A stretch of DNA of 40,040 nucleotides, taken from the IMG/VR virus record IMGVR_UViG_3300042453_002208, positions 1-40,040 of that record, one strand, 5' to 3'. Each line of letters opens with the position of its first letter. The first letter of the stretch is position 1. Made by a program: the position numbers and the translations under genes. Positions 4,791-24,128 of the stretch are shown piece after piece. The DNA comes from a virus. A model generated the notes under the pieces. The model had not been told where the DNA came from and did no database searches. It saw only the letters and a list, made by a program, of their open reading frames with translations.

Positions 4791-5320
4791 TAGGCTGTTG
4801 GTTTATAATACTTAAGATAATCTTCTTTTAAATATAAGCCTAAGTATGGGAGATTTAGATTCTGTTGTGCTAATAAAACCATATTCCTATTCACATTAAA
4901 AGTAGCATCTCTATCTCCGGTTAACTGCCATTGTAATTGGAATTTAAAATACAAAGTATTATTAACATCATTATCGTATTGATCTTTAGTTAATTCTTCG
5001 TATAAAAATTCATTTCGTTTTTTCTTAAAATAACGAGTAAATACTCCTCTTTTGTAGTCCTCGGGTGTTGGGAACATAGGAGGAATAGGAGAAGTAATTG
5101 GTGATATAGTTAAGTTAGGAGCATCACTACTAAGAGCAGGTACTAATTCATCATTCATGCCATCACCTGGAAACTTACCTGTGTAGTATTTCCCGGTAGA
5201 TAGTTTGTAGTAAAATCCTGTGTAGTATGGGCCGTTGTTATTGTAGTTAACAATGGTTTTAAACTCGCCTCCACTAGTTTGGAGACCTTGTTGGATTTTA
5301 TTTTTAGGATAATATGCCAT
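4790..5320 (-). CDS. Hypothetical virion protein (176 aa), baseplate region
   Basis: Not recognised by family. The protein is Tyr/Asn-rich (VNYNNNGPYYTGFYYKLSTG near residues 24-43), with a Pro-rich segment (ISPITSPIPPMFPTPEDYKR) and an aromatic C-terminal half (LYFKFQLQWQLTG). The YYTGFYYKLSTGKYYTG pattern suggests a beta-structured virion-surface protein. Its ATG overlaps the stop of the hub gene by one base (TAATG), so it is likely made together with the hub protein and may bind it. Confidence 0.7.
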   Translation of the reverse strand: MAYYPKNKIQQGLQTSGGEFKTIVNYNNNGPYYTGFYYKLSTGKYYTGKFPGDGMNDELVPALSSDAPNLTISPITSPIPPMFPTPEDYKRGVFTRYFKKKRNEFLYEELTKDQYDNDVNNTLYFKFQLQWQLTGDRDATFNVNRNMVLLAQQNLNLPYLGLYLKEDYLKYYKPTA

Positions 5321-8300
5321 TACGCAGTTCTATTTGCATTTTGTAATATAGGTAATAATATTAGGTATTTACTCCAAACTTCATCAGCACCAGTACCGTT
5401 TACTGTTCTTCTGGCTTTATCCTTATCGTTAGCTTTTACATAAGCATAAGTATTATGCTCAGTCATCCAAGCTGATATAACGTTATATGCTACTTCATCA
5501 CTAGTAAATATTAGTTCTGGGTTGCCTACTAGGTCTATTCCTAGTATGTTTCCATATGTTTCGTAGTTTCCTTTTCCTGTTAGTTGGACAAGGCCTCTAC
5601 CAAAGTATGGAAGACCATTATTATCTGTTCCTAATGTGTAGTAGTCTATTTTAGAACCTGCGTCAGATTTATAATAATTTTTAGCTGCTAAACATGGGCC
5701 GTTAGTATTAGCGGCTACACCTGCTGGGGTTGGTGGGAGATATGGGTCCCCAACTTTTTCTATTTTAGGTTGTGAGTTATTTCTAGTACATAAGTAATCT
5801 GATTCCCATCTTATTGTAGAGAAATTAGCTTCTTGTTTTGCGGTTGCTAAAAGGTAGGCAGCATCTTCTACATCTACTATGTTTTGGTCATTTTTAATAT
5901 AACGTAATACTTTTCTTAAAGATGCTTCAAAGTTTGCAGTTCTTAAAGCACTAGCTTGGATTTTACTTACAACATCATTAATATCAAATTTTTTCCAATC
6001 ATTTCCAACAAATGAAGTATCATCAGTTCCAAAAGGATTTGCGTTTGCTTGCCAATTCCCAGCTCTAGGAATTACAATTGATCTTCTAGTTATATTTTCT
6101 ACATCATCAGCATTTTCAATTTGTACCCCTTCATACCTAGGTCCACATATACTATTCAATGTTGTTTTCCAACCATTTTCATCTACATGGTGCGATACAC
6201 CTGAGCATATAAATTGTATTTTGTTTTTATATGCATCAGGGAGTAGTGTTGTGTCTATAGTATATGATTCATAGATGCGGGGGCCACTTAATCCAAGCAT
6301 TGTTAATTCCAAGTCGAATGGTATAAAACCAATGCCCGGGATTTTTCCTCTATTTGTAAAATCTCCTATTTGAGCATTGAATATATCTCCAATTGATCCT
6401 TTAATTGATGATATATCTGCGTCTGTTAGTGAGAAATCTCCTACTTTTCTGTTAAATTCTTTTAAATATATGATATTCTCTTTGTATATCGTTTCAGTAT
6501 CTTTTCCAGTATCAGCATTAGTGTTGTCTTTTCTTTCAATAATTCTATCTGTTAATCCATCATTCCATTTACTTAAAGCAGTTGAATTAGAACCTACAAC
6601 ATTACCATTCTTTTGTGCTCCAATAGTAGTCATTGTAGCAAAATTATTTGATAATTTAGTTTTAAAATTAACGTTTTCTATAAAACTACCATAATTAGGT
6701 CTTAAAATATTAGCATTAAATTGTATTATTTTAAATCTACTATTATTTTTATCTACAGTTCCTGGAATGAAGGTATTGTCTATGATTCGGTATGAGTTGG
6801 TGTCTTCAGTGTATATGATTTGAAAGTTGTTAACATTACCTAAAGCGTTTTGAATTCGTTTCATTAGTGTATCTAAAAAATCATATAATGAAATTTCACC
6901 TGTTGATAAATTTACATTTTTATCTAAAATTCCGGCTATACATTCTAAGTTAACATATATATGCATAGTATTACCTCTCCATGTATTACCTTTAGTTTTA
7001 TAACCAGTGTCTTTTAAAAGATCAAATACATTTGAAGTACCGTTGTTTGGGGGAAGATAATTAGATGATAAGTCATAGTATGTACGAGTTGTAATCCCAC
7101 TATAGTATGCTCGTTCATGCTCTAAATCATAGCCGGCATAGTAATCATATGAACGATACAATGATCTTCGTTCATTTTTTTTCCGGAAGTACTCATCTCT
7201 AGATATTTCAGTTGGAGTAATAGCGTTTCTGTTTCCAAGATCTCTAGGATCAATATTTCCAGGGTTAAAATCAAAGTATTTATCTCCTAAATCTTGATAA
7301 GCTCTATAGTGGCTTACTATATATTCAGTTCCTTCTACTATGTTTACAGGAACATATGTAGTATTAAGGTCAATCCAACTAGTTAAAGCTGTTTTAGCTT
7401 TACCTTGGTCTGAGCTATAGTTTAAAATATCATTTTTGTTGGTTTCTAGAGCTGGGGTATAATAATTAATTATATTTATGCTAGAACCTGGGGCCGTGTT
7501 AGTAGATTGGGGGACGGTTTGGTTTACAATAACGGATGGGCCCCAAAATACTCCGTATTGGAATGTTGCATTTACAATACCTGATGTTCCACCACTAAAT
7601 TGTGATGCTCCTGTGTTGTCATTAACATCAAATACTTCTAAAAAATTGTATGTTTTTTCTACATAAGCATATCCTGAGGTAGCATCATTAGACCCAGTTG
7701 CGGTTTGGTCCATTGGGATTAAACATACTTTTGGGTCAAGTGAGCATTGTCGTGGGAAGGTAAAGCAATGGTTAGTATTATAATTATAGTCTATTTTAAA
7801 TAGTGGAGGGCGAAATTTATCTTCTCCTTTTGTAGTATCATACACTAATAAGAATGATTCTAATATTCTCATTAGTGTGCCTAATTTAATATAATATTGA
7901 AGACCATTTGTACCTTCACTTAAACTAGAATAACCAAAAGCCCAAGCTTCATTCCATGTTAGATAATCACCTGCTTTACTAAAATCTACAGTTCTATTAA
8001 AAACAGATTTAAGATCAGACATCCATTCTAAATTACCATTGTGGATAGGAGTTTGGGATGCTCCGTTCCCGTTTGAGTTAAAGTACTCATTATTATAATC
8101 TACCCCGTGTGCATATCCTCTACCAGAGTATACTTGGGTAGTAATAGAGTTTAAGATTTTATTTATAGTAGTTTTTTGAGCATTAGCTGCAAGTAAAGAT
8201 GTAGATGTTGGAGCTGCACCAATAGGTTTTACAGCTGGGTAGTTAGTGTTGATTTTTAAGGATTCAATTACATCTCCTACTGATTTAGCAGTTATGGTTA

Positions 8301-9069
8301 TATCATATCCCCCATCTGGTCTTAGGGTCCAGGTAAAGTTGGTGACTAGGCCAAAAAATGCATCATAATTACCATTAGATCCTTCTCTGTTACTTTCAAT
8401 ATTGTCTAATAGTCCTTGTTGAGTAACATTTCCTTTTAAAAATATTTGAGAAAGATCCCATGTTGATGATGGTCTAAAAATACTATCGTTATCAAAATAC
8501 ATACTATGTCCCCACTCTAATAAAATACTATATTTTAATCGCATATATAGTATTTCTATAATTTTGAATTGTTGAAGACTATGACATTGGATTTGAATAT
8601 TAGCTTCTCTTAAAGATCCTCTATTCATAGCCTTGATATCAATAGATTTAATGCCTGGAGGGGGTACTAGACCGTAGTCTGCATCCGAGTAGAAACCATA
8701 GGATGTTGGGTATTGTCCTATTGAGCCATCAAAGTACCCATACCCACTTGTTAATGTATCTAATTTTCCAACAGCTTTTTGTGTTTGTGGGTCATAACTA
8801 CTAATATATACTGATCTACCACCATATAATTTATTGTATGCAGCTAGGCCATTGCTATTATATAATGGGTTATTTTGTAAACCTAGTTGAGTTAAGATAT
8901 TACTGTCTACATTTACCCCAGACGTAAGACGAATGAAAGGTGCGTTGCTATTTACAAATTGGTAGACTTCTTGGTCTTTAAGGCCTAGCCCTAGTTTTTC
9001 TTGTCTTACCCTAATTTGTTTTTTAACATAATCTTCAAAACTTGCTCCTATGATGTTACTAGATGCCAT
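5320..9069 (-). CDS. Baseplate hub protein with C-terminal GH19-type peptidoglycan hydrolase domain
   Basis: 1249 residues. The N-terminal ~1000 residues match the large baseplate/hub proteins of T4-type environmental phages; a signature near residues 905-975 is IPGIGFIPFDLELTMLGLSG followed by a segment ending in SGVSHHVDENGW. The last ~165 residues look like glycoside hydrolase family 19: ATAKQEANF holds the expected catalytic Glu, and FGRGLVQLTGKGNYETYG is the substrate-cleft signature. Inferred role: it forms the tip hub and locally opens peptidoglycan at injection, the job of T4 gp5-gp27, here with the enzyme at the C-terminus. gp53 lies 2 nt upstream. Hub assignment is probable; the GH19 domain is well supported. 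Confidence 0.82.
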   Translation of the reverse strand: MASSNIIGASFEDYVKKQIRVRQEKLGLGLKDQEVYQFVNSNAPFIRLTSGVNVDSNILTQLGLQNNPLYNSNGLAAYNKLYGGRSVYISSYDPQTQKAVGKLDTLTSGYGYFDGSIGQYPTSYGFYSDADYGLVPPPGIKSIDIKAMNRGSLREANIQIQCHSLQQFKIIEILYMRLKYSILLEWGHSMYFDNDSIFRPSSTWDLSQIFLKGNVTQQGLLDNIESNREGSNGNYDAFFGLVTNFTWTLRPDGGYDITITAKSVGDVIESLKINTNYPAVKPIGAAPTSTSLLAANAQKTTINKILNSITTQVYSGRGYAHGVDYNNEYFNSNGNGASQTPIHNGNLEWMSDLKSVFNRTVDFSKAGDYLTWNEAWAFGYSSLSEGTNGLQYYIKLGTLMRILESFLLVYDTTKGEDKFRPPLFKIDYNYNTNHCFTFPRQCSLDPKVCLIPMDQTATGSNDATSGYAYVEKTYNFLEVFDVNDNTGASQFSGGTSGIVNATFQYGVFWGPSVIVNQTVPQSTNTAPGSSINIINYYTPALETNKNDILNYSSDQGKAKTALTSWIDLNTTYVPVNIVEGTEYIVSHYRAYQDLGDKYFDFNPGNIDPRDLGNRNAITPTEISRDEYFRKKNERRSLYRSYDYYAGYDLEHERAYYSGITTRTYYDLSSNYLPPNNGTSNVFDLLKDTGYKTKGNTWRGNTMHIYVNLECIAGILDKNVNLSTGEISLYDFLDTLMKRIQNALGNVNNFQIIYTEDTNSYRIIDNTFIPGTVDKNNSRFKIIQFNANILRPNYGSFIENVNFKTKLSNNFATMTTIGAQKNGNVVGSNSTALSKWNDGLTDRIIERKDNTNADTGKDTETIYKENIIYLKEFNRKVGDFSLTDADISSIKGSIGDIFNAQIGDFTNRGKIPGIGFIPFDLELTMLGLSGPRIYESYTIDTTLLPDAYKNKIQFICSGVSHHVDENGWKTTLNSICGPRYEGVQIENADDVENITRRSIVIPRAGNWQANANPFGTDDTSFVGNDWKKFDINDVVSKIQASALRTANFEASLRKVLRYIKNDQNIVDVEDAAYLLATAKQEANFSTIRWESDYLCTRNNSQPKIEKVGDPYLPPTPAGVAANTNGPCLAAKNYYKSDAGSKIDYYTLGTDNNGLPYFGRGLVQLTGKGNYETYGNILGIDLVGNPELIFTSDEVAYNVISAWMTEHNTYAYVKANDKDKARRTVNGTGADEVWSKYLILLPILQNANRTA

Positions 9070-11538: not shown

Positions 11539-13782
11539 TTACTGGAGTTTACCTGGGCCAGTAACATTTCCATTATTTGATGCACTAGCTATTTCTCTAT
11601 CGTTTACTTTAACTGAAGTGTTAATGTTAACTCTAGACATAGCTGCTGCTAGGCGATCATAATCTATAGGTTGTGATCCTCCTCCACCGCCGTTTCTTTT
11701 TCCTAAATCAGTGCCCGCAATAACAGTATCATTTTTATCTAGCTGGAAAGTGCCCTTATTACCTGATACTAATAATCCTCCTTCTGGGGATATCATACCA
11801 TCTTTAATGGGGGTTTTAGGCTCACTAGCAGCGGACATTGCTGCCATTACTGCCCCTAAACCTGCTATAATACCAATTGTAGCAGCACCCATTGTAAATG
11901 CTTCAGCTGCTGTTACTTCGGCAGCAGCCCGAGCTGTAGATAATCCTAATGCTACACCTAATTTGGCTATCATTTGAACTATACCAGCAACCATTTTACC
12001 TGCTATTAATCCAGAGATTGCTCCAAATATAGCATAAACGGTATCTGCGTCACTAACAAATGCTGCAAATCCTTCTAGCAATTGTCCAAATGGGCCTGCT
12101 AATAAATTAGAAAATAAATCCTTTAATTTTTCTATAGATTGGTTAAATCTATCTGCTGCTGATTGTTGTTCAAATTGTTTAGCTAATTGTTCGTCTCCTA
12201 ATTGTAATGCGGCTTGTTCAGCTGTTAATCCTCTAGAGCGTAAATCATCATATTTTTTCTTTGCTTCTTCAGCTGTTTTAGCACCTACTCTTTGTAATGC
12301 TTCTTGTTCTACTAATGAATTAGCTAATTCTTCTCTACTCATACCCACAGCATTAGCAAATGCTTCTTGTTGGATGCGATTCATTTTAGAAAATTCAGCT
12401 GATCCACCAATTTGGTTTTTAATTTCTTCAGCTACAGTGGCCATATCATTATTTAATGCGGCTAGACGAGCTGTTTCAAGATTAATCTGTTTACCAGTTA
12501 ATAATTCTGCTTCTAATTCGGCTGATATACTGTCTTCAAAATTAAGTAATTTACCAGAAATTGCTTCTACTTTACCTAAATCAGATCCTAATGCTTTAGC
12601 TGCTACAGCTGCTTCAGCTAGTGCTTTGCTGCTACCACCTAATGATAATTTAATAGTGTTAGAAGCACCTGCTGTTTCTTTCATTAATTGTTTAACATTA
12701 ATTGCTAAACCTTTTTGAGCAGATAATGCTGTTGCTCCACCTAAAAATTCTTTAGTAGTATCTTCTACACTTTTACCAGTAACTAAAGACATCTTTTGCA
12801 TACTTACTAATTCATCATTAGTAAATCCAGCTTGTTCTCTTAATTTAGTAAAAGTTTTTAAATCTTTTTCGTTTATATCAGCATTAGCACCTAAAGTTTG
12901 ACTAATAGCTGTATAACTTTCTTGTAACCCTCTAGTATTAATAGCTGTGTCTTTAGAATTAAATGCTATTTGACCTAATTGTTCTCTAAATGCTAGAGCT
13001 TCTTTATAGGTCATATTCATATTTTTAGCTAACTCACCAGCGGCTTTATCCATTGATGTTAATATACTAAATGCTTGACCTAATAAAAATAAAGGATCAG
13101 TTAGTGAGCCAGCTAAACTTTTACCTACAGACCCCGCAGTTTTAGCCATTACTGAAAGTCGAGTAGATCCTTTTCTAGCAGATTCTTCTTGGGCTACAGC
13201 GGCTGCTTCTTCAGCATCTATTAGGTTACCTAGTACTGGTATTTTACTTATACCTTTTACAAGGTTACCAGTTATGCCTAATTTTTTGTTTTGGGCATCA
13301 ACTTGTTTTTGTTGTTTTTCTAATTCTTTAGTATAATCTTCATTGTAACCTTTTGCTTTAATGTATTCTTCAACAAGTTGCTTTTGTCTTCTAGTTAAAG
13401 AAAGAGTACCAGCGTTTTGTTTTTCAATTAATTCTTCAATATTTTCTACTTGAATACCTTGTTGTCTTAAATTAGTAACAAGTTTAACACCTAATGCTAA
13501 TTCCTGAGCTTTTCGTTCGTTAATTTGTTTTTGGATGTTTTTAACAGTAAGAGACCCTTGCTCTATTCGAGTAATGTTAGAAGCGATATCGTCAGTAATT
13601 CTAGCAAATTTATTAAATGATGCTTGTAAATCTCTAGATGTAGCTCGAGTTACTCTATCTGCTCCAGATAATGCCCTATCAAATATGTCTCCAATTTGAC
13701 CCGCTATACCACGTAATGCGTCTTCTACGACAGATGCTGTTTCTTGAGCCCTTCTTCTTATATCGTCTTGATTATCAGCCAT
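11539..13782 (-). CDS. Tail tape-measure protein
   Basis: 747 residues. Residues 1-190 are Gln/Glu/Lys-rich heptad-like helices (coiled coil). A long Ala-rich helical middle follows, then a hydrophobic block at about residues 590-665 (GAISGLIAGKMVAGIVQMIA). The C-terminal signature is PEGGLLVSGNKGTFQLDKND, widespread in tape-measure proteins. Role by family: it sets tail length inside the tube and is ejected ahead of DNA. At about 0.15 nm per residue it would fit a tail of roughly 110 nm (inference). It follows the gp26-type/frameshift pair, the usual place just after the tail chaperone genes, and has its own ATATTTATA element 14 nt upstream. It takes the place of T4 gp29. Confidence 0.85.
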   Translation of the reverse strand: MADNQDDIRRRAQETASVVEDALRGIAGQIGDIFDRALSGADRVTRATSRDLQASFNKFARITDDIASNITRIEQGSLTVKNIQKQINERKAQELALGVKLVTNLRQQGIQVENIEELIEKQNAGTLSLTRRQKQLVEEYIKAKGYNEDYTKELEKQQKQVDAQNKKLGITGNLVKGISKIPVLGNLIDAEEAAAVAQEESARKGSTRLSVMAKTAGSVGKSLAGSLTDPLFLLGQAFSILTSMDKAAGELAKNMNMTYKEALAFREQLGQIAFNSKDTAINTRGLQESYTAISQTLGANADINEKDLKTFTKLREQAGFTNDELVSMQKMSLVTGKSVEDTTKEFLGGATALSAQKGLAINVKQLMKETAGASNTIKLSLGGSSKALAEAAVAAKALGSDLGKVEAISGKLLNFEDSISAELEAELLTGKQINLETARLAALNNDMATVAEEIKNQIGGSAEFSKMNRIQQEAFANAVGMSREELANSLVEQEALQRVGAKTAEEAKKKYDDLRSRGLTAEQAALQLGDEQLAKQFEQQSAADRFNQSIEKLKDLFSNLLAGPFGQLLEGFAAFVSDADTVYAIFGAISGLIAGKMVAGIVQMIAKLGVALGLSTARAAAEVTAAEAFTMGAATIGIIAGLGAVMAAMSAASEPKTPIKDGMISPEGGLLVSGNKGTFQLDKNDTVIAGTDLGKRNGGGGGSQPIDYDRLAAAMSRVNINTSVKVNDREIASASNNGNVTGPGKLQ

Positions 13783-13806: not shown

Positions 13807-13833
13807 GAAAAAGCCAAGTTTTAATACTTGGCT
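13807..13833 (-). terminator. Hairpin terminator after gp26-type/frameshift pair
   Basis: Inverted repeat AGCCAAG (13812-13818) and CTTGGCT (13827-13833) with an 8-nt loop, followed on the minus strand by a run of five T. It overlaps the last codons and stop of the downstream frame and separates the pair from the tape-measure gene. Confidence 0.75.
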
Positions 13834-14138
13834 ATTCTTTTACCTGGGTCTAGTTTTCCTTTAAAATGTGATGGTAAATCTATTTTACCTTCTTTAATTT
13901 TTTGGGTTTGGGTTGCTAAATCATCATTATTTGATTTATTTTGTTGCTCATAATATTCTTGTAGTTTTTTAAATGTAAATCTACGAAGCCAAATAGGCAT
14001 ATTATAAACTGTTTCCCAATCGTATCCCCCATTACCATGAAAAACTATCTCATGTATTTGAGTAAATAAATTTGCTCTAGCTTGGGACGCTAAATCAGAT
14101 GTCAGGCCAAAAAAAGTTAAGTCCAACTGGAATTGCAA
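13821..14138 (-). CDS. Downstream frame of tail-assembly chaperone / gp51-like protein, probably translated by frameshifting
   Basis: An open frame of 105 codons from the TTG at 14138. It overlaps the end of the gp26-type gene by 44 nt. The frame is open from an in-frame TGA at 14169-14171, and the first ATG is far inside, at 14000, so no ordinary start exists. The product contains LFTQIHEIVFHGNGGYDW followed by VYNMPIWLRRFTFKKLQEYY, resembling the second domain of tail-assembly chaperone pairs. I infer that ribosomes shift at the 7-T run (14109-14115), appending ~95 residues to the gp26-type protein. Independent TTG initiation is the alternative. A terminator hairpin overlaps the 3' end. Confidence 0.7.
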   Translation of the reverse strand: MQFQLDLTFFGLTSDLASQARANLFTQIHEIVFHGNGGYDWETVYNMPIWLRRFTFKKLQEYYEQQNKSNNDDLATQTQKIKEGKIDLPSHFKGKLDPGKRIAKY

Positions 14139-14829
14139 CTTTTTCGTTGCTCCCGTTGGGAAAAAAGGTCAGATCTACGTCTGGCTGCACCTCCTTTATA
14201 TACTCCCTTAATGCTCTGGAGTCACGGGCAAGTAATGTAGTGTCTACAAATTCACGGATATCTTTTTGGTCTCGATTACCATTAAATGAAGTAATAATAT
14301 ATTTTAAACGAGTTGATAATTCAGCTGAGGAATTTTTGTTGATTTTCTTTAAACCATCTAATTCAGCTTTAATTTTAGTTTCATCCTTATTAGTTAGTAA
14401 CTTAAATGTTATTGCAATATTAGTAGCGGGTAGTGTAAAATTAAATTCGTTTATACCTTTTTTAAATAATTTAGCATTAATAGGCTTATTGTCTAATGTA
14501 GATAAATCAACATTATATTCTTCTCCACCCCAGGTAAATTTATAATCTTTACCATATCCTAAAATGCGAGCTGCTACTAAAACTGCGTTTTTATCGCCAA
14601 CACACATTTCATCATAATTTACATCAGATACAATAAGTGATTTGATTAACTCATCTAATACTGTACCTTTTTGTATATAGTTGGCATTGGTAAGGATGTC
14701 TTCTTCTCTAGCAGTCATATATTTCATTTCGACTTTACCGCTTGATAAAAGAGATGATTCTGGGTAAATTAACCCTTGTGATGGTAATTCAACAATTTCT
14801 GTTGGTATCTTTAATTTGTTTTCACTCAT
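14095..14829 (-). CDS. gp26: gp26-type baseplate hub / tail assembly chaperone protein
   Basis: 244 residues matching the T4 baseplate protein family (gp26-type). The signature is the N-terminal VELPSQGLIYPESSLLSSGK followed by MKYMTAREEDILTNANYI, then ARILGYGKDYKF. In T4, gp26 takes part in hub assembly. Its place immediately before the tape-measure gene and the overlapping second frame resemble the G/GT chaperone pair of lambda-like phages, so a chaperone role on the tape measure is inferred. The zero-frame product ends GLNFFWPDI. An ATATTTATA copy lies 31 nt upstream, the longest spacing of the set. Family call is good; exact T4 gene correspondence is less sure. Confidence 0.8.
   Translation of the reverse strand: MSENKLKIPTEIVELPSQGLIYPESSLLSSGKVEMKYMTAREEDILTNANYIQKGTVLDELIKSLIVSDVNYDEMCVGDKNAVLVAARILGYGKDYKFTWGGEEYNVDLSTLDNKPINAKLFKKGINEFNFTLPATNIAITFKLLTNKDETKIKAELDGLKKINKNSSAELSTRLKYIITSFNGNRDQKDIREFVDTTLLARDSRALREYIKEVQPDVDLTFFPNGSNEKVAIPVGLNFFWPDI
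14109..14115 (-). other. Candidate programmed frameshift site (7-T run)
   Basis: On the minus strand the gp26-type frame reads AAC TTT TTT TGG just before its stop, while the downstream frame reads ACT TTT TTT GGC. Moving from the first frame to the second needs +1 (or -2) slippage on the T run. The downstream frame has no ATG start. Slippage of these kinds is documented in other tail-chaperone pairs (-2 in phage Mu, +1 in Listeria phage PSA, -1 in lambda). The run is seen directly; slippage is inference. A second run of six T lies 45 nt upstream (14161-14166). Confidence 0.6.
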
Positions 14830-14884: not shown

Positions 14885-16741
14885 TTATACTAGGTTTTGA
14901 TCCTTTAGTGGTTTAATATAATCATTATAATATCTTTTTACAGGTTTCCAGATCTGAGAAAATGGACGAGGAGCCTCACCTACATTATTAAGAGTATTAG
15001 CAGTAACATTTTGGGCTGGGTACAAAGTAATATTGTCTGGGTTTGCGGGGAATATGGCTACTTCATCGTATAGTTCATTCTCTACGTCCATTCCTGTTCT
15101 TTGCAGTGCATCTATTTGGGGGTTAGCTTCATTTACTATTATAGAATATTGGTCTAAATATGTACTATTAGGGGTATATATAGTAGCATATTGGGATGGT
15201 GCTCCATTAAATTCTCCTAAATTAGTTTGTGGGACTTCAGGGTAATTAGTGGGGCTAGTAATATTGTTAGGTACAGTAGCTGTAATGAAAGATTGTTGTA
15301 TTGTGTTATCTAATCCTGTTTCTCCAGATAATACGGTATCTATTTGGCGACTGGTTTCGCTTTCAATAGGTACATTATTTAAGTAAGTATTAGTAGGAGA
15401 ATATACTGTGTTATATTGATTAGGAGCACCATTAAATACACCTAAATTTACCCCTTCTATAGCTGGGTATTCATTAGGGTATGATATGTTATTGGGGATA
15501 ATAGTAGTTGGGGTGCTATCTGTATCAGTGTTGTCTAATCCGGTTTGTTCTAATGTAGGTATTTGTGGGCTATTAGGATCTTGGATAGGTACTGAGTTTA
15601 AATATGGATTTTCAGAATTATATGGCGATGTATATTGTGATGGAGCACCATTAAATTCACCACTAACTAACGTCGGGTAATTATTAGGATATGATATATC
15701 ATTTGGGATAATAGCAGAAGGTGCTGCTAAAGGATTAGTATTATCTAACCCGGTGTTTGCTAAGGAAAAGTTTTGTGGACTATTAGAATCTTGGATAGAT
15801 ATAACATCCAAATAAGTATTATCTGGGTTGTAAGGGGATGAGTATTGTGATGGAGCATTGTTAAATTCTCCACTTACCAACGCCGGGTAATTATTAGGGT
15901 AGCTATTACTATCAGGAATAGGGTTAGTTGTAGATATACTTTGAGGTATAGTATTATCTAATGCTGTTTTATCTAATGTATCTTGTTGTTTAACATAACT
16001 AAGATTATTAAATAAATTAATTTCATACGGGAAACCATAACTCCATGGTGCTGTAAAATTAGTAGATGGTCCTCTCCATTTACCCAAAGCATTACCAGGA
16101 TATGCTGTAGGAGCAGACCATGGTGTTGGTGGGTTAATTTCACTTAAAGTAGGGATTTGAGGACTATCTGAATCTTTAATAGGTACATCCTCTAGATAAG
16201 TGTTATCTAGATTATAAGGAGTATCATATTGTTCTGGGGCTCCATCAAATTTACCGCTAGCTAGTGGTGGGTAGTTATTAGGGTATGATATACTATTAGG
16301 TATTATTGTTGTTCCTTCGGCATTAGCATTGGTATTATCTAACCCAGTTTGGGCTAAGGTAGATAATTGAGGACTATTTGGGTCTCCAATAGATACATTG
16401 TCTAGGTATGTGTTTTCAGCAGCATATGCTAACCCATACAACGATGGAGCACCATTAAATTCACCACTAGCTAATGGAGGATAATTAGTTACCCAATCAT
16501 ATGTTGGGGGTGGGGTACCAGTAGTTTGAGTAAAATTTGTTATGTCTAAACCCGTATTATCTAGTGTGTTTGATAATACACTACCATTATTAAATTGACC
16601 TACAGTTTCATCTTCGTATGTATTTTCAGGGGAATTATCTTGGGTAAATCCTGATTGAGGGTCATTAATAGGAGCATCATTAGGAAAACTCCCTGCACTT
16701 AATAATGTTTGCCCTTGTTGTAGTCGTTCTAATAGATTCAT
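14885..16741 (-). CDS. Repeat-rich virion protein with six to seven ~70-residue tandem repeats, function unknown
   Basis: 618 residues, not recognised. From about residue 60 to 550 the protein is built of units of 70-75 residues, each containing TGLDNT, then IIPNxISYPNNYP, SGEFNGAPSQY, NTYLxxVPI and xSPQIxTL. The SGEFNGAP core recurs at residues 92, 162, 290, 360, 433 and 508, with a degenerate unit near 220. The N-terminus (MNLLERLQQGQTLLSAGSF) resembles the 84-residue baseplate-unit protein. The C-terminus is basic and aromatic (IWKPVKRYYNDYIKPLKDQ). It lies between tail tube and gp26-type genes with its own upstream element and a terminator before it. Composition (Asn/Pro/Ser/Thr, no Cys) fits an elongated external structure; a whisker or tail decoration is a guess. 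Confidence 0.75.
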   Translation of the reverse strand: MNLLERLQQGQTLLSAGSFPNDAPINDPQSGFTQDNSPENTYEDETVGQFNNGSVLSNTLDNTGLDITNFTQTTGTPPPTYDWVTNYPPLASGEFNGAPSLYGLAYAAENTYLDNVSIGDPNSPQLSTLAQTGLDNTNANAEGTTIIPNSISYPNNYPPLASGKFDGAPEQYDTPYNLDNTYLEDVPIKDSDSPQIPTLSEINPPTPWSAPTAYPGNALGKWRGPSTNFTAPWSYGFPYEINLFNNLSYVKQQDTLDKTALDNTIPQSISTTNPIPDSNSYPNNYPALVSGEFNNAPSQYSSPYNPDNTYLDVISIQDSNSPQNFSLANTGLDNTNPLAAPSAIIPNDISYPNNYPTLVSGEFNGAPSQYTSPYNSENPYLNSVPIQDPNSPQIPTLEQTGLDNTDTDSTPTTIIPNNISYPNEYPAIEGVNLGVFNGAPNQYNTVYSPTNTYLNNVPIESETSRQIDTVLSGETGLDNTIQQSFITATVPNNITSPTNYPEVPQTNLGEFNGAPSQYATIYTPNSTYLDQYSIIVNEANPQIDALQRTGMDVENELYDEVAIFPANPDNITLYPAQNVTANTLNNVGEAPRPFSQIWKPVKRYYNDYIKPLKDQNLV

Positions 16742-16813: not shown

Positions 16814-17302
16814 TTAGTAATTTAATACGCAGTAGTCTACAGCTACAGTCATTGTGATATTAACAGCAGTATCTGCAGTATCCCAGTTATAATCACCGAA
16901 GTTAGCATCAACTATAAATGCGCCTTTAAGAATCCATTCGCTTACTACGTCTCCAACAGGTCCTAGTACATCTAATACTAAATCTTTTTTATAAAAATCA
17001 GAATATCCATCTCTACCAGTTACAGATTCGTGATGTAAACGAACCCATTCCATTACAGCTTGAGCACCAGAAGGTGTGATTGGATCAAATAATGTCATTT
17101 GTACATTACCCCAAGTGGTTTTACCTTTAACTTTACGTAAAACGTTAATATGGTTTAAGGTTACTTCGCCTTGAGTTAAGTTGATACCGTTTACACCTTT
17201 TACAATGTAACTAGGTACACCATCCATATACAGGATAAATCTATTAGCCTGTTTTGGTTCAAAGGCTGTGAAGAATATTTCGTTTGAATTTAATATTGCC
17301 AT
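16814..17302 (-). CDS. gp19: Tail tube protein gp19
   Basis: 162 residues, essentially the T4 gp19 length (163). Family features: QANRFILYMDGVPSYIVKG near the N-terminus, then EVTLNHINVLRKVKGKTTWG, a central NVQMTLFDPITPSGAQAVMEW, and a C-terminus ending in a beta strand with VAVDYCVLNY. It polymerises into the inner tube through which DNA passes. It directly follows the sheath gene, with an ATATTTATA element 14 nt before the start and a strong hairpin terminator after the stop, so it can be made in excess on its own transcript. Confidence 0.93.
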   Translation of the reverse strand: MAILNSNEIFFTAFEPKQANRFILYMDGVPSYIVKGVNGINLTQGEVTLNHINVLRKVKGKTTWGNVQMTLFDPITPSGAQAVMEWVRLHHESVTGRDGYSDFYKKDLVLDVLGPVGDVVSEWILKGAFIVDANFGDYNWDTADTAVNITMTVAVDYCVLNY

Positions 17303-21992: not shown

Positions 21993-22697
21993 TTACAATC
22001 CAAATCTAGTTTTTGTAGCGTTGTAGTTTTGGAGTACTTCTTGTTCAGTTAGTGTTCTGTTATAGACAAACGCATTAGCAACTCTTCCATCACTGTAGTA
22101 AGATCCGCCTCTCATTATTTCAAAGTCTCTACTAAAAATATTAGTTGAGCCAGATTTTGCAGTACCTGTGGTTTTTGTTAATATACCATTTTTTATACCA
22201 TATAAAGTAGTTGTTGTACCGTCATATGTAGCAACCGCATTAATCCAAATTCCAGTTGTCACATAATTACCTAAAGCAACTGGATAACAAGTACCTCCCG
22301 CAGCAGGACCATAATCATTGTAAAATTGCAAACTACCACCAGTATTAACTACTAAACCTAAATTACTACCACATGCGTATACTAAAGTACCAATTAATCC
22401 TCTTAAAACATCAATTGTATCTAACTGGAATGTAATTCCTATGGTGATATTAGTCTGACCTTGGATTAGATTTTTAGTTTCGGGGTTTGTTGTAACATAG
22501 TCATTTACTCCGTCAAATTCTATACTACCACCATTTTGGTTACTAAAAGTAGATCCATTTATTAAGCTTCCACTTACTAATGGATTAGTTAAATTTCTCC
22601 AAATAGTACTACCACTAGTATAACTCTTTGTATTACCAGCATCTAATGCTAATACTAATCCATTAGTAACAATACTATTTCTTGTGTTTACAGCCAT
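21993..22697 (-). CDS. LamG / concanavalin A-like jellyroll protein, copy 3
   Basis: I place the start at ATG 22697 (MAVNTRNSIVTNGLVLALDA) rather than an upstream TTG at 22712, because the ATG aligns with the two sister genes and leaves a 1-nt gap after the preceding stop. 234 residues. Signature: IVTNGLVLALDAGNTKSY, STIWRNL, NGGSIEFDGVNDYV, and a C-terminal NAFVYNRTLTEQEVLQNYNA, the ending common to phage LamG proteins. The fold usually binds carbohydrate, so a receptor-binding or fibre-decorating role is likely. Last of three tandem paralogues following the giant fibre; the neck gene set follows. Confidence 0.85.
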   Translation of the reverse strand: MAVNTRNSIVTNGLVLALDAGNTKSYTSGSTIWRNLTNPLVSGSLINGSTFSNQNGGSIEFDGVNDYVTTNPETKNLIQGQTNITIGITFQLDTIDVLRGLIGTLVYACGSNLGLVVNTGGSLQFYNDYGPAAGGTCYPVALGNYVTTGIWINAVATYDGTTTTLYGIKNGILTKTTGTAKSGSTNIFSRDFEIMRGGSYYSDGRVANAFVYNRTLTEQEVLQNYNATKTRFGL

Positions 22698-22698
22698 A

Positions 22699-23427
22699 TT
22701 ATGATAATCCAAATCGTGATTTGAGTGAGTTGTAGTTTTGGGTGATTTCTTGAGCTGAAAGCGTTCTATTGTAGATTCTGTTTACGTATATGTTACCAAT
22801 AAAAACTGCGTTAGTATTCCCTAGATTTCCTCCACCAACACTAACTAGATCATTGTTATATGGAGTAATTGGTTTTCCTGTTAAATTTTGAGTTCCAGAT
22901 AAAAGACCGTTTATATACAATGATATTTGGGTACCAGATGAGTTAGCAGCAAATACTAAATGGGATACTGTATTAAGTATGTTACCTATTGTAAAGGTAT
23001 TGAATATTAAACTTTCACTATTATCTCTGTGTATAAAACTAACACTGCCTGAAGTTGTTATTTGGGTTGCGTAATTGAATGTGCTTGCTGGTCCTTTTGT
23101 CAAAATCATATTGGTCAAACCGAAATAGGTCCCAGGTTGAAGTGCAGTAGGTTTGACCCAATGTTCTAATGTAAAGCTACCGCTTGTAAAAGATAGTGGG
23201 GAGGTTGTTGAAAACGAGCCGAAAGAAATATAATCATTACTTCCATCAAATACAATAGTACCTCCATTTTGGTTGCTGAAAGTAGGTCCGTTTATAAAAC
23301 TTCCATTAAAACTATTCCCACTTAAATCTCTCCAAGTAGTACTTCCACTTACATAACTTTTAGTGTTAGCAGCATCTAAATTTAATACTAATCCGTTTGT
23401 TACTATGGTAGGTGTTCCGTATATCAT
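22699..23427 (-). CDS. LamG / concanavalin A-like jellyroll protein, copy 2
   Basis: 242 residues. Same architecture as its neighbours: TIVTNGLVLNLDAANTKSYV, STTWRDLSGNSFNGSF, NGGTIVFDGSNDYISFG, a central FTLEHWVKPTAL and a terminal IYVNRIYNRTLSAQEITQNY. This copy keeps the classical full WRDLSGN motif and the aromatic strand (EHWVKP). Its ATG overlaps the stop of copy 1 by four bases (ATGA), giving coupled translation. Likely a virion surface carbohydrate-binding module; ligand unknown. Confidence 0.86.
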   Translation of the reverse strand: MIYGTPTIVTNGLVLNLDAANTKSYVSGSTTWRDLSGNSFNGSFINGPTFSNQNGGTIVFDGSNDYISFGSFSTTSPLSFTSGSFTLEHWVKPTALQPGTYFGLTNMILTKGPASTFNYATQITTSGSVSFIHRDNSESLIFNTFTIGNILNTVSHLVFAANSSGTQISLYINGLLSGTQNLTGKPITPYNNDLVSVGGGNLGNTNAVFIGNIYVNRIYNRTLSAQEITQNYNSLKSRFGLS

Positions 23428-24128
23428 AAGCCAAACCTCCCTTTTGTTGCGTTGTAATTTTGAGTGATTTCTTGTGCTGAAAGTTCTCTGTTATAGATTT
23501 TTACATCATATATATTACCTTGGGTAAAATTTCCTGGAGCTGTTCCATCACTACATCCTACTTGGTTTATTAGATTAGAACCTGTAATATATAAAGATCC
23601 TATTATTCTTGTATTATTTAAAACTCCATTTATATATAGGTTTAACACTGTAGATGCAGTATTAAAGGTTCCAACTACATTATATATAATAGAAGTAGAT
23701 GGAGAAAAAGAGGATGTTATTCCAATGTAAGATCCTCCTACAGTTTTACCAGATACAAAAAATTTATCCCCAATATTAGTCCACCCTAATATAGCTGTTT
23801 GATCAAAATTTGGGGCTGCGTTACTTCTTCCAAAATATACAGCTGTTCCTACTTTAGGTGTATATTTGATCCAAGTACTAACTGTATAGGAGCCAGGGAT
23901 TATGTTAGTTGTCCCACAATTTACATGATCATTTACTCCATCAAATACTATACTTCCTCCATTTTGACTATCAAATGTAGGTCCATTAATTAAACTACCA
24001 CTTAATGTAGGATTACCTAAACTAAACCAATTTGTAGACCCAGATGTGTAAGACTTAGGATTAGCGGCATCTAATGCAAGTACTAATCCATTAGTAACTA
24101 TTGGAGGTGTATTTTTGAATATAGCCAT
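23424..24128 (-). CDS. LamG / concanavalin A-like jellyroll protein, copy 1
   Basis: 234 residues. Features: PIVTNGLVLALDAANPKSYT, STNWFSLGNPTLSGSLI, NGGSIVFDGVNDHVNCG, SYTVSTWIKYTP, and a terminal IYDVKIYNRELSAQEITQNY. It follows the fibre stop by 2 nt and overlaps the next paralogue by four bases, so fibre and all three LamG proteins are probably one transcript. Divergence from the other two is greatest in the middle strands, where ligand-binding loops of this fold lie, consistent with diversification after duplication. Confidence 0.85.
   Translation of the reverse strand: MAIFKNTPPIVTNGLVLALDAANPKSYTSGSTNWFSLGNPTLSGSLINGPTFDSQNGGSIVFDGVNDHVNCGTTNIIPGSYTVSTWIKYTPKVGTAVYFGRSNAAPNFDQTAILGWTNIGDKFFVSGKTVGGSYIGITSSFSPSTSIIYNVVGTFNTASTVLNLYINGVLNNTRIIGSLYITGSNLINQVGCSDGTAPGNFTQGNIYDVKIYNRELSAQEITQNYNATKGRFGL

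Follow-up and report, generated by a model that had tools for sequence, protein, structure and literature searches.

Frameshifting in tail assembly chaperone genes has been described mostly in the -1 direction, with a -2 shift in Mu and probably a +1 shift in HSTV-2 (PMC5009743). In lambda (G/GT), P2 (E/E'), Mu and HSTV-2, a short and a long chaperone are made, the shift occurring late in the first gene, just before the tape measure gene. Among T4-like phages, tail chaperones have already been identified (Vladimirov, Gautam and Davidson, 2022, Virology 566:9, as cited in PMC10885494 and PMC12846349) and, according to the papers that cite this work, some of these phages have one short and one long chaperone gene (PMC10885494) and the chaperones of others use -1 poly-T signals (PMC12846349). 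T4 itself has no frameshift: its genes 26 and 51 are separate paralogues, of which one is short and the other long. The initial annotation of the locus described below had invoked lambda G/GT, Mu and Listeria phage PSA as precedents; the first two are indeed tail chaperone shifts, whereas the frameshifts of PSA are located in its capsid and tail-shaft genes (PMC5009743).

Here we report that a gp26/gp51-type locus, found in a stretch of viral DNA of 40,040 nucleotides (hereafter the window), probably encodes a T4-type tail assembly chaperone made as a short and a long form through +1 programmed frameshifting, a reading to which we assign a probability of about 0.88 from comparative sequence analysis. 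The arrangement is that of lambda, P2, Mu and HSTV-2, although their chaperones are proteins unrelated, or undetectably related, to the one of the window. With T4, the locus shares the N-domain family, and T4 gp26 also ends in ...EFFELL, but T4 relies on two genes where the window has a single frameshifted locus. The features are collected in Table 1. The gene that immediately follows the overlapping frames encodes the probable tape measure protein; it was assigned by position and synteny, and its product has no family match of its own. In the isolates immuto and SP-15 too, the chaperone is flanked by tail tube and tape measure. Relative to the gp26-type gene (ORF1), the second frame is in the +1 (= -2) register and is bounded by stops at 14171-14169 and 13823-13821. 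The overlap amounts to 44 nt counted from the TTG at 14138, or to 74 nt counting all open frame; this TTG and the one at 14126 are the only start codons of the second frame before the T run, the first ATG being at 14000, and no start of its own is conserved. The T run is read TTT TTT TGG in ORF1 and TTT TTT GGC in the second frame, and a shift would lead to a fusion of 240 + 95 = 335 aa. The initial annotation had described this overlap, its upstream stop, the lack of ATG leaving only TTG starts, the two readings of the T run and a +1 or -2 fusion of about 335 residues, and all its coordinates hold. Among the 11,694 codons of the window ORFs, an in-frame TTTTTTT is unique to the chaperone overlap.

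Table 1. Features of the chaperone locus and its neighbors, in window coordinates.
Feature	Coordinates	Strand	Remarks
Probable tape measure protein	11539..13782	minus	747 aa, next downstream; assignment based on position and on synteny with immuto and SP-15
TAC-C, putative second domain of the long form	13824..14108	minus	95 codons, +1 frame, GLTSDL...GGYDWETVYNMPIWLRRF...; under purifying selection
ORF1/second-frame overlap	14095..14168	minus	+1 frame open from 14168; ORF1 stop TGA 14097-14095
TAC-N, gp26/gp51-type (PF12322 / PHROG 150), short form	14095..14829	minus	244 aa, C-terminus ...NFFWPDI
Putative slip site TTT TTT TGG	14107..14115	minus	T run 14115-14109; next +1 codon GGC (14108-14106)
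Tail tube protein	16814..17302	minus	Upstream of chaperone; PHROG 4542, 9e-22

Profile and model comparisons match the proteins to the tail assembly chaperone family of T4 gp26 and gp51. The window N-domain was matched to PHROG 150 (baseplate hub) at 4.4e-11 and to PF12322, to which both T4 gp26 and gp51 belong, at 21 bits, under the curated cut-off of 24.5; PF12322 was matched by 10 of 19 clade members (best 4e-15), as well as by RM378 (2e-9) and GXN1 (4e-25). Its AlphaFold2 model (pLDDT 89.5) retrieved T4-like baseplate hub (assembly) proteins with Foldseek, with E-values down to 1e-16, and no significant match in the PDB, where HK97 gp13 (2OB9) had the top listed probability (0.35, E-value 1.2). 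Since direct hhalign against a four-sequence T4-type alignment gave no match (probability 0.3%), family membership rests on PHROG, on Pfam through the relatives and on the fold search. Regarding the second domain, which is predicted to be mostly helical (model pLDDT 68), a fold search gave nothing usable (best E-value 0.8), and weak similarities were found with PHROG 32580 (best E-value 0.026, 7 of 22 sequences) and with the C-terminal extension of T4 gp51 (hhalign E-value 3e-4, probability 40%). With a seven-sequence HMMER search, the extensions of SP-15, GXN1 and cyanophages were reached at about 5e-4 and gp51 at 0.23; an NCBIfam search returned no relevant match.

Relatives were collected through protein searches of IMG/VR and GTDB and tblastn of INPHARED, yielding about 240 loci and a few isolates. 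The register was scored at 239 locus junctions, the window was added to the +1 loci to make 233 sequences, and start codons and codon usage were counted on 118 dereplicated loci. An overlapping second domain in the +1 register was found in 232 of the 239 scored loci, in addition to the window, and the +1 second frame is present in immuto, Mel-JY01, RM378, SP-15, vB_SagM-GXN1 and the 484-kb LR756508; in the deposited annotations of immuto, SP-15 and Mel-JY01, the second domain is entered as a hypothetical protein, either truncated or with a separate start. The T-rich site is retained in all 233 +1 sequences, window included, with the spellings TTT TTT TGG (221), TTT CTT TGG (4), TTT CTT TAC (4), TTT TTT TTC (3) and CTT TTT TGG (1). 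The seven exceptions comprise four loci with separate ORFs, one +1 frame broken by a stop (L023) and two loci without the domain directly at the junction (L181 and L198). The in-frame stop of L023 breaks the second domain (L023:3726-3991) and reflects either a sequencing error or a broken gene, and in L091 and L181 (a 595-kb phage and a deltaproteobacterial contig) the second domain is seemingly in the -1 frame and not in the +1 frame.

These relatives bear on the simplest alternative, namely that the window holds one continuous gene interrupted by a one-base indel sequencing error in the T run. Homopolymers are error-prone and the contig is metagenomic, but independent contigs show the same register at more than 230 loci, as do the cultured isolates immuto and Mel-JY01, and the end of ORF1 is conserved as FFWPDx-stop, so that the comparison across relatives already refutes a sequencing error, to which we give practically no credence. 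The T run taken alone says little, because TTT accounts for 87-88% of Phe codons and FF elsewhere is spelled TTTTTT in 34 of 36 cases; its conservation was hence dropped as a stand-alone argument, Phe codon bias explaining part of it. At the junction, all 118 loci use CCT for Pro (CCT represents 37% of Pro codons elsewhere), and 104 of the 118 have GAC as the following codon (GAC represents 20% of Asp codons elsewhere).

The second domain might also be a separate gene, started at one of the two TTG codons and translationally coupled to ORF1. The window retains both TTGs in frame upstream of the site, so such a start is possible for its sequence taken alone; moreover, a TTG at -17 from TGG is common among close relatives, the deposited Mel-JY01 annotation uses a TTG start for the second domain, and second ORFs with their own ATG do exist in a few loci discussed below. 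However, 31 of the 118 dereplicated loci contain no ATG, GTG or TTG ahead of the site in the +1 frame (an in-frame ATG is found upstream of it in 29), and in L068, L074, L078, L079, L081 and others a +1 stop precedes TGG by 8 nt without any start codon in between, which makes independent initiation impossible in these tightest loci. As the frame-0 stop follows +12 to +24 after TGG in loci with a tight +1 stop, at 12 nt in most, the shift would be confined to about 20 nt in such relatives. For separate genes, the nearly constant +1 register would be unexpected, and the variation upstream of the site tracks frame 0 and not the +1 frame, so that a separate start appears quite improbable compared with frameshifting. 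Indeed, the least-conserved codon position is the third position of frame 0 upstream of the site and the third position of the +1 frame downstream. In the +1 frame, the downstream second domain has a dN of about 0.05-0.16 vs a dS of about 0.47-0.82, and the same DNA read in frame 0 gives no comparable dN/dS signal. These patterns indicate that coding selection changes frame at the junction, with purifying selection in both frames. The overlap of the two frames is thus real and exceeds chance, given the uniqueness of the in-frame TTTTTTT, the register shared by the relatives and a dN below dS in the second frame. The initial annotation had left the conservation of the locus to an alignment of homologues, across which the T run, the +1 register and the absence of a usable start are all kept.

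Five relatives (L119, L182, L183, L184 and L198) have kept the FFWPD protein but spell it TTC TTC TGG CCA/CCC GAT, and in the same five the second domain is an ORF started by its own ATG (MDVSNKTRNQLAFFGLT..., METNEKLRNQLALFGIT...). Because these silently recoded loci have an ATG-started second domain, the slip site is gone exactly where it is not needed. An ATG-started second gene lacking the T run, a combination that the initial annotation had regarded as contradicting its proposal of a short and a long chaperone made by frameshifting, is found only in these loci without the site; the proposal itself is supported by the T run, +1 register and missing starts being kept and by the gain of an ATG where the site was lost. 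In L119, L182, L183 and L184, the second ORF comes after the ORF1 stop in the same frame; it lies directly after ORF1 with no endonuclease (L119:3227-3562, and likewise in the three others), possibly as a later stage of the L198 state. In L198, the second domain is about 690 nt beyond the junction, and a GIY-YIG homing endonuclease ORF (Pfam 1.5e-8; I-HmuI NUMOD-like domain) together with a hairpin separates it from the N-domain gene (L198:3226-4257), the endonuclease ORF sitting exactly at the lost frameshift junction. At this one locus, the endonuclease may have caused the gene split. No second copy of the N-domain or of the second domain was found elsewhere on the contigs of the exceptions, which are fragments. 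The relatives that lost the site constitute a natural experiment on the passage from a frameshifted gene to a two-gene system such as T4 26/51.

Known +1 sites such as prfB (CUU_UGA) and Ty1 (CUU_AGG_C) involve a pyrimidine-rich codon on which the P-site tRNA moves forward by one base. The window site differs from both by its Phe codons (UUU UUU UGG), the lack of an A-site stop codon and the lack of an evident RNA-structure stimulator; for the RNA 3' of the slip site, a consensus fold of 22 sequences with RNAalifold reached -4.6 kcal/mol without any compensatory pair. Natural variants of the site, namely TTT C.. in LR756508 and GXN1, TTT TTT C.. in SP-15 and the TTT CTT TGG/TAC spellings, fit a +1 slip of Phe from UUU to UUY, and they favor the +1 direction over -2; at the TTT C.. 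of LR756508 and GXN1, tRNA-Phe can re-pair on UUC one base ahead. Slippage by -2 on the T run, as employed by the Mu tail chaperones (PMC5009743), would give NFFFGLT, with one extra Phe compared with the +1 product NFFGLT, and the T7 run does permit re-pairing of UUU two bases back. By pairing analysis, however, it fails at the GXN1 site TTC TTT CGT, requires a mismatch at the LR756508 site AAC TTT CTA and, in the TTT CTT variants, requires a Leu tRNA on UUC, whereas +1 fits every site; we consequently hold -2 slippage to be unlikely. For the window clade, the predicted junction is NFFGLTSDLASQAR after a +1 shift and NFFFGLTSDLASQAR after a -2 shift, and the T run can be recoded with the protein unchanged as TTCTTCTGG (compare TTCTTCT, which keeps FFW). 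A fusion might also arise from RNA polymerase slippage altering mRNA length at this homopolymer of 7, but 7 Ts are short for efficient polymerase slippage and the broken-run TTTCTTT loci (four TTT CTT TGG and four TTT CTT TAC) retain the +1 architecture, which makes it very improbable.

We infer the frameshift itself, its efficiency, its +1 direction and the chaperone function of the locus product. Following this reading, most ribosomes would terminate at 14095 to give the 244-aa short form, while a minority would shift by +1 at the Phe codon within UUU UUU UGG (UUU to UUU), with GGC entering the A site, and would synthesize the 335-aa long form, whose C-terminal domain is predicted to be mostly helical. 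The model for their roles is lambda gpG/gpGT: coating of the tape measure protein would fall to the short form and recruitment of tail tube subunits to the less abundant long form, possibly in a fixed short:long ratio. Across a large group of aquatic phages related to T4, a +1 skip of this kind at the T run seems to give rise to both the short and the long chaperone, which would extend tail-chaperone frameshifting to this group, in the rare +1 direction, with a strongly conserved slip site that apparently works without stop codon or RNA structure. In the open literature that we searched, no description of a +1 shift in a T4-type chaperone was found; this route appears to be new, T4-like chaperones and -1 shifts in some of them being already known.

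Cyanophage DSL-LC02 and Aeromonas phage phiAS5 have, in gp26, the same gene with the same terminal FF codons and a second domain in an overlapping frame, but we observed in them a canonical T TTT TTC -1 site where the window clade has +1. Their -1 frame runs over GAT TTT TTC GCC TGA (L088:3181-3363 in DSL-LC02, L089:3202-3381 in phiAS5), and the downstream ORF annotated in both is an internal-ATG fragment of the second domain. It is somewhat probable that this homologous chaperone family switched decoding strategy several times while keeping its two-product output, with +1 on Phe codons (this clade, SP-15, RM378 and GXN1), -1 at these FF codons in cyanophages and in phages of Aeromonas, a pair of full genes in T4, and separate short ORFs in a small lineage (L198, L119) marked by the homing endonuclease ORF at the L198 junction.

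Finally, Flavobacterium phage immuto is among the INPHARED relatives, and the locus also occurs on several GTDB contigs whose bins are Flavobacteriaceae, Winogradskyella or Saprospiraceae, so that a Bacteroidota host is likely for the phage of the window; many phages of the group probably infect Bacteroidota. The window also encodes, on the minus strand, a 618-aa protein with repeats (e.g., SYPNNYPPLASGEFNGAPSQY) and no Pfam match, located between tail tube and chaperone (14885-16741), a likely baseplate protein of 1249 aa whose C-terminal domain belongs to glycoside hydrolase family 19 (chitinase class I) (5320-9069) and, in tandem, three paralogous ORFs, each about 235 aa long (IVTNGLVLALDAANPKSYTSGSTNW...; 21993-24128), which are perhaps lectin-like tail proteins.
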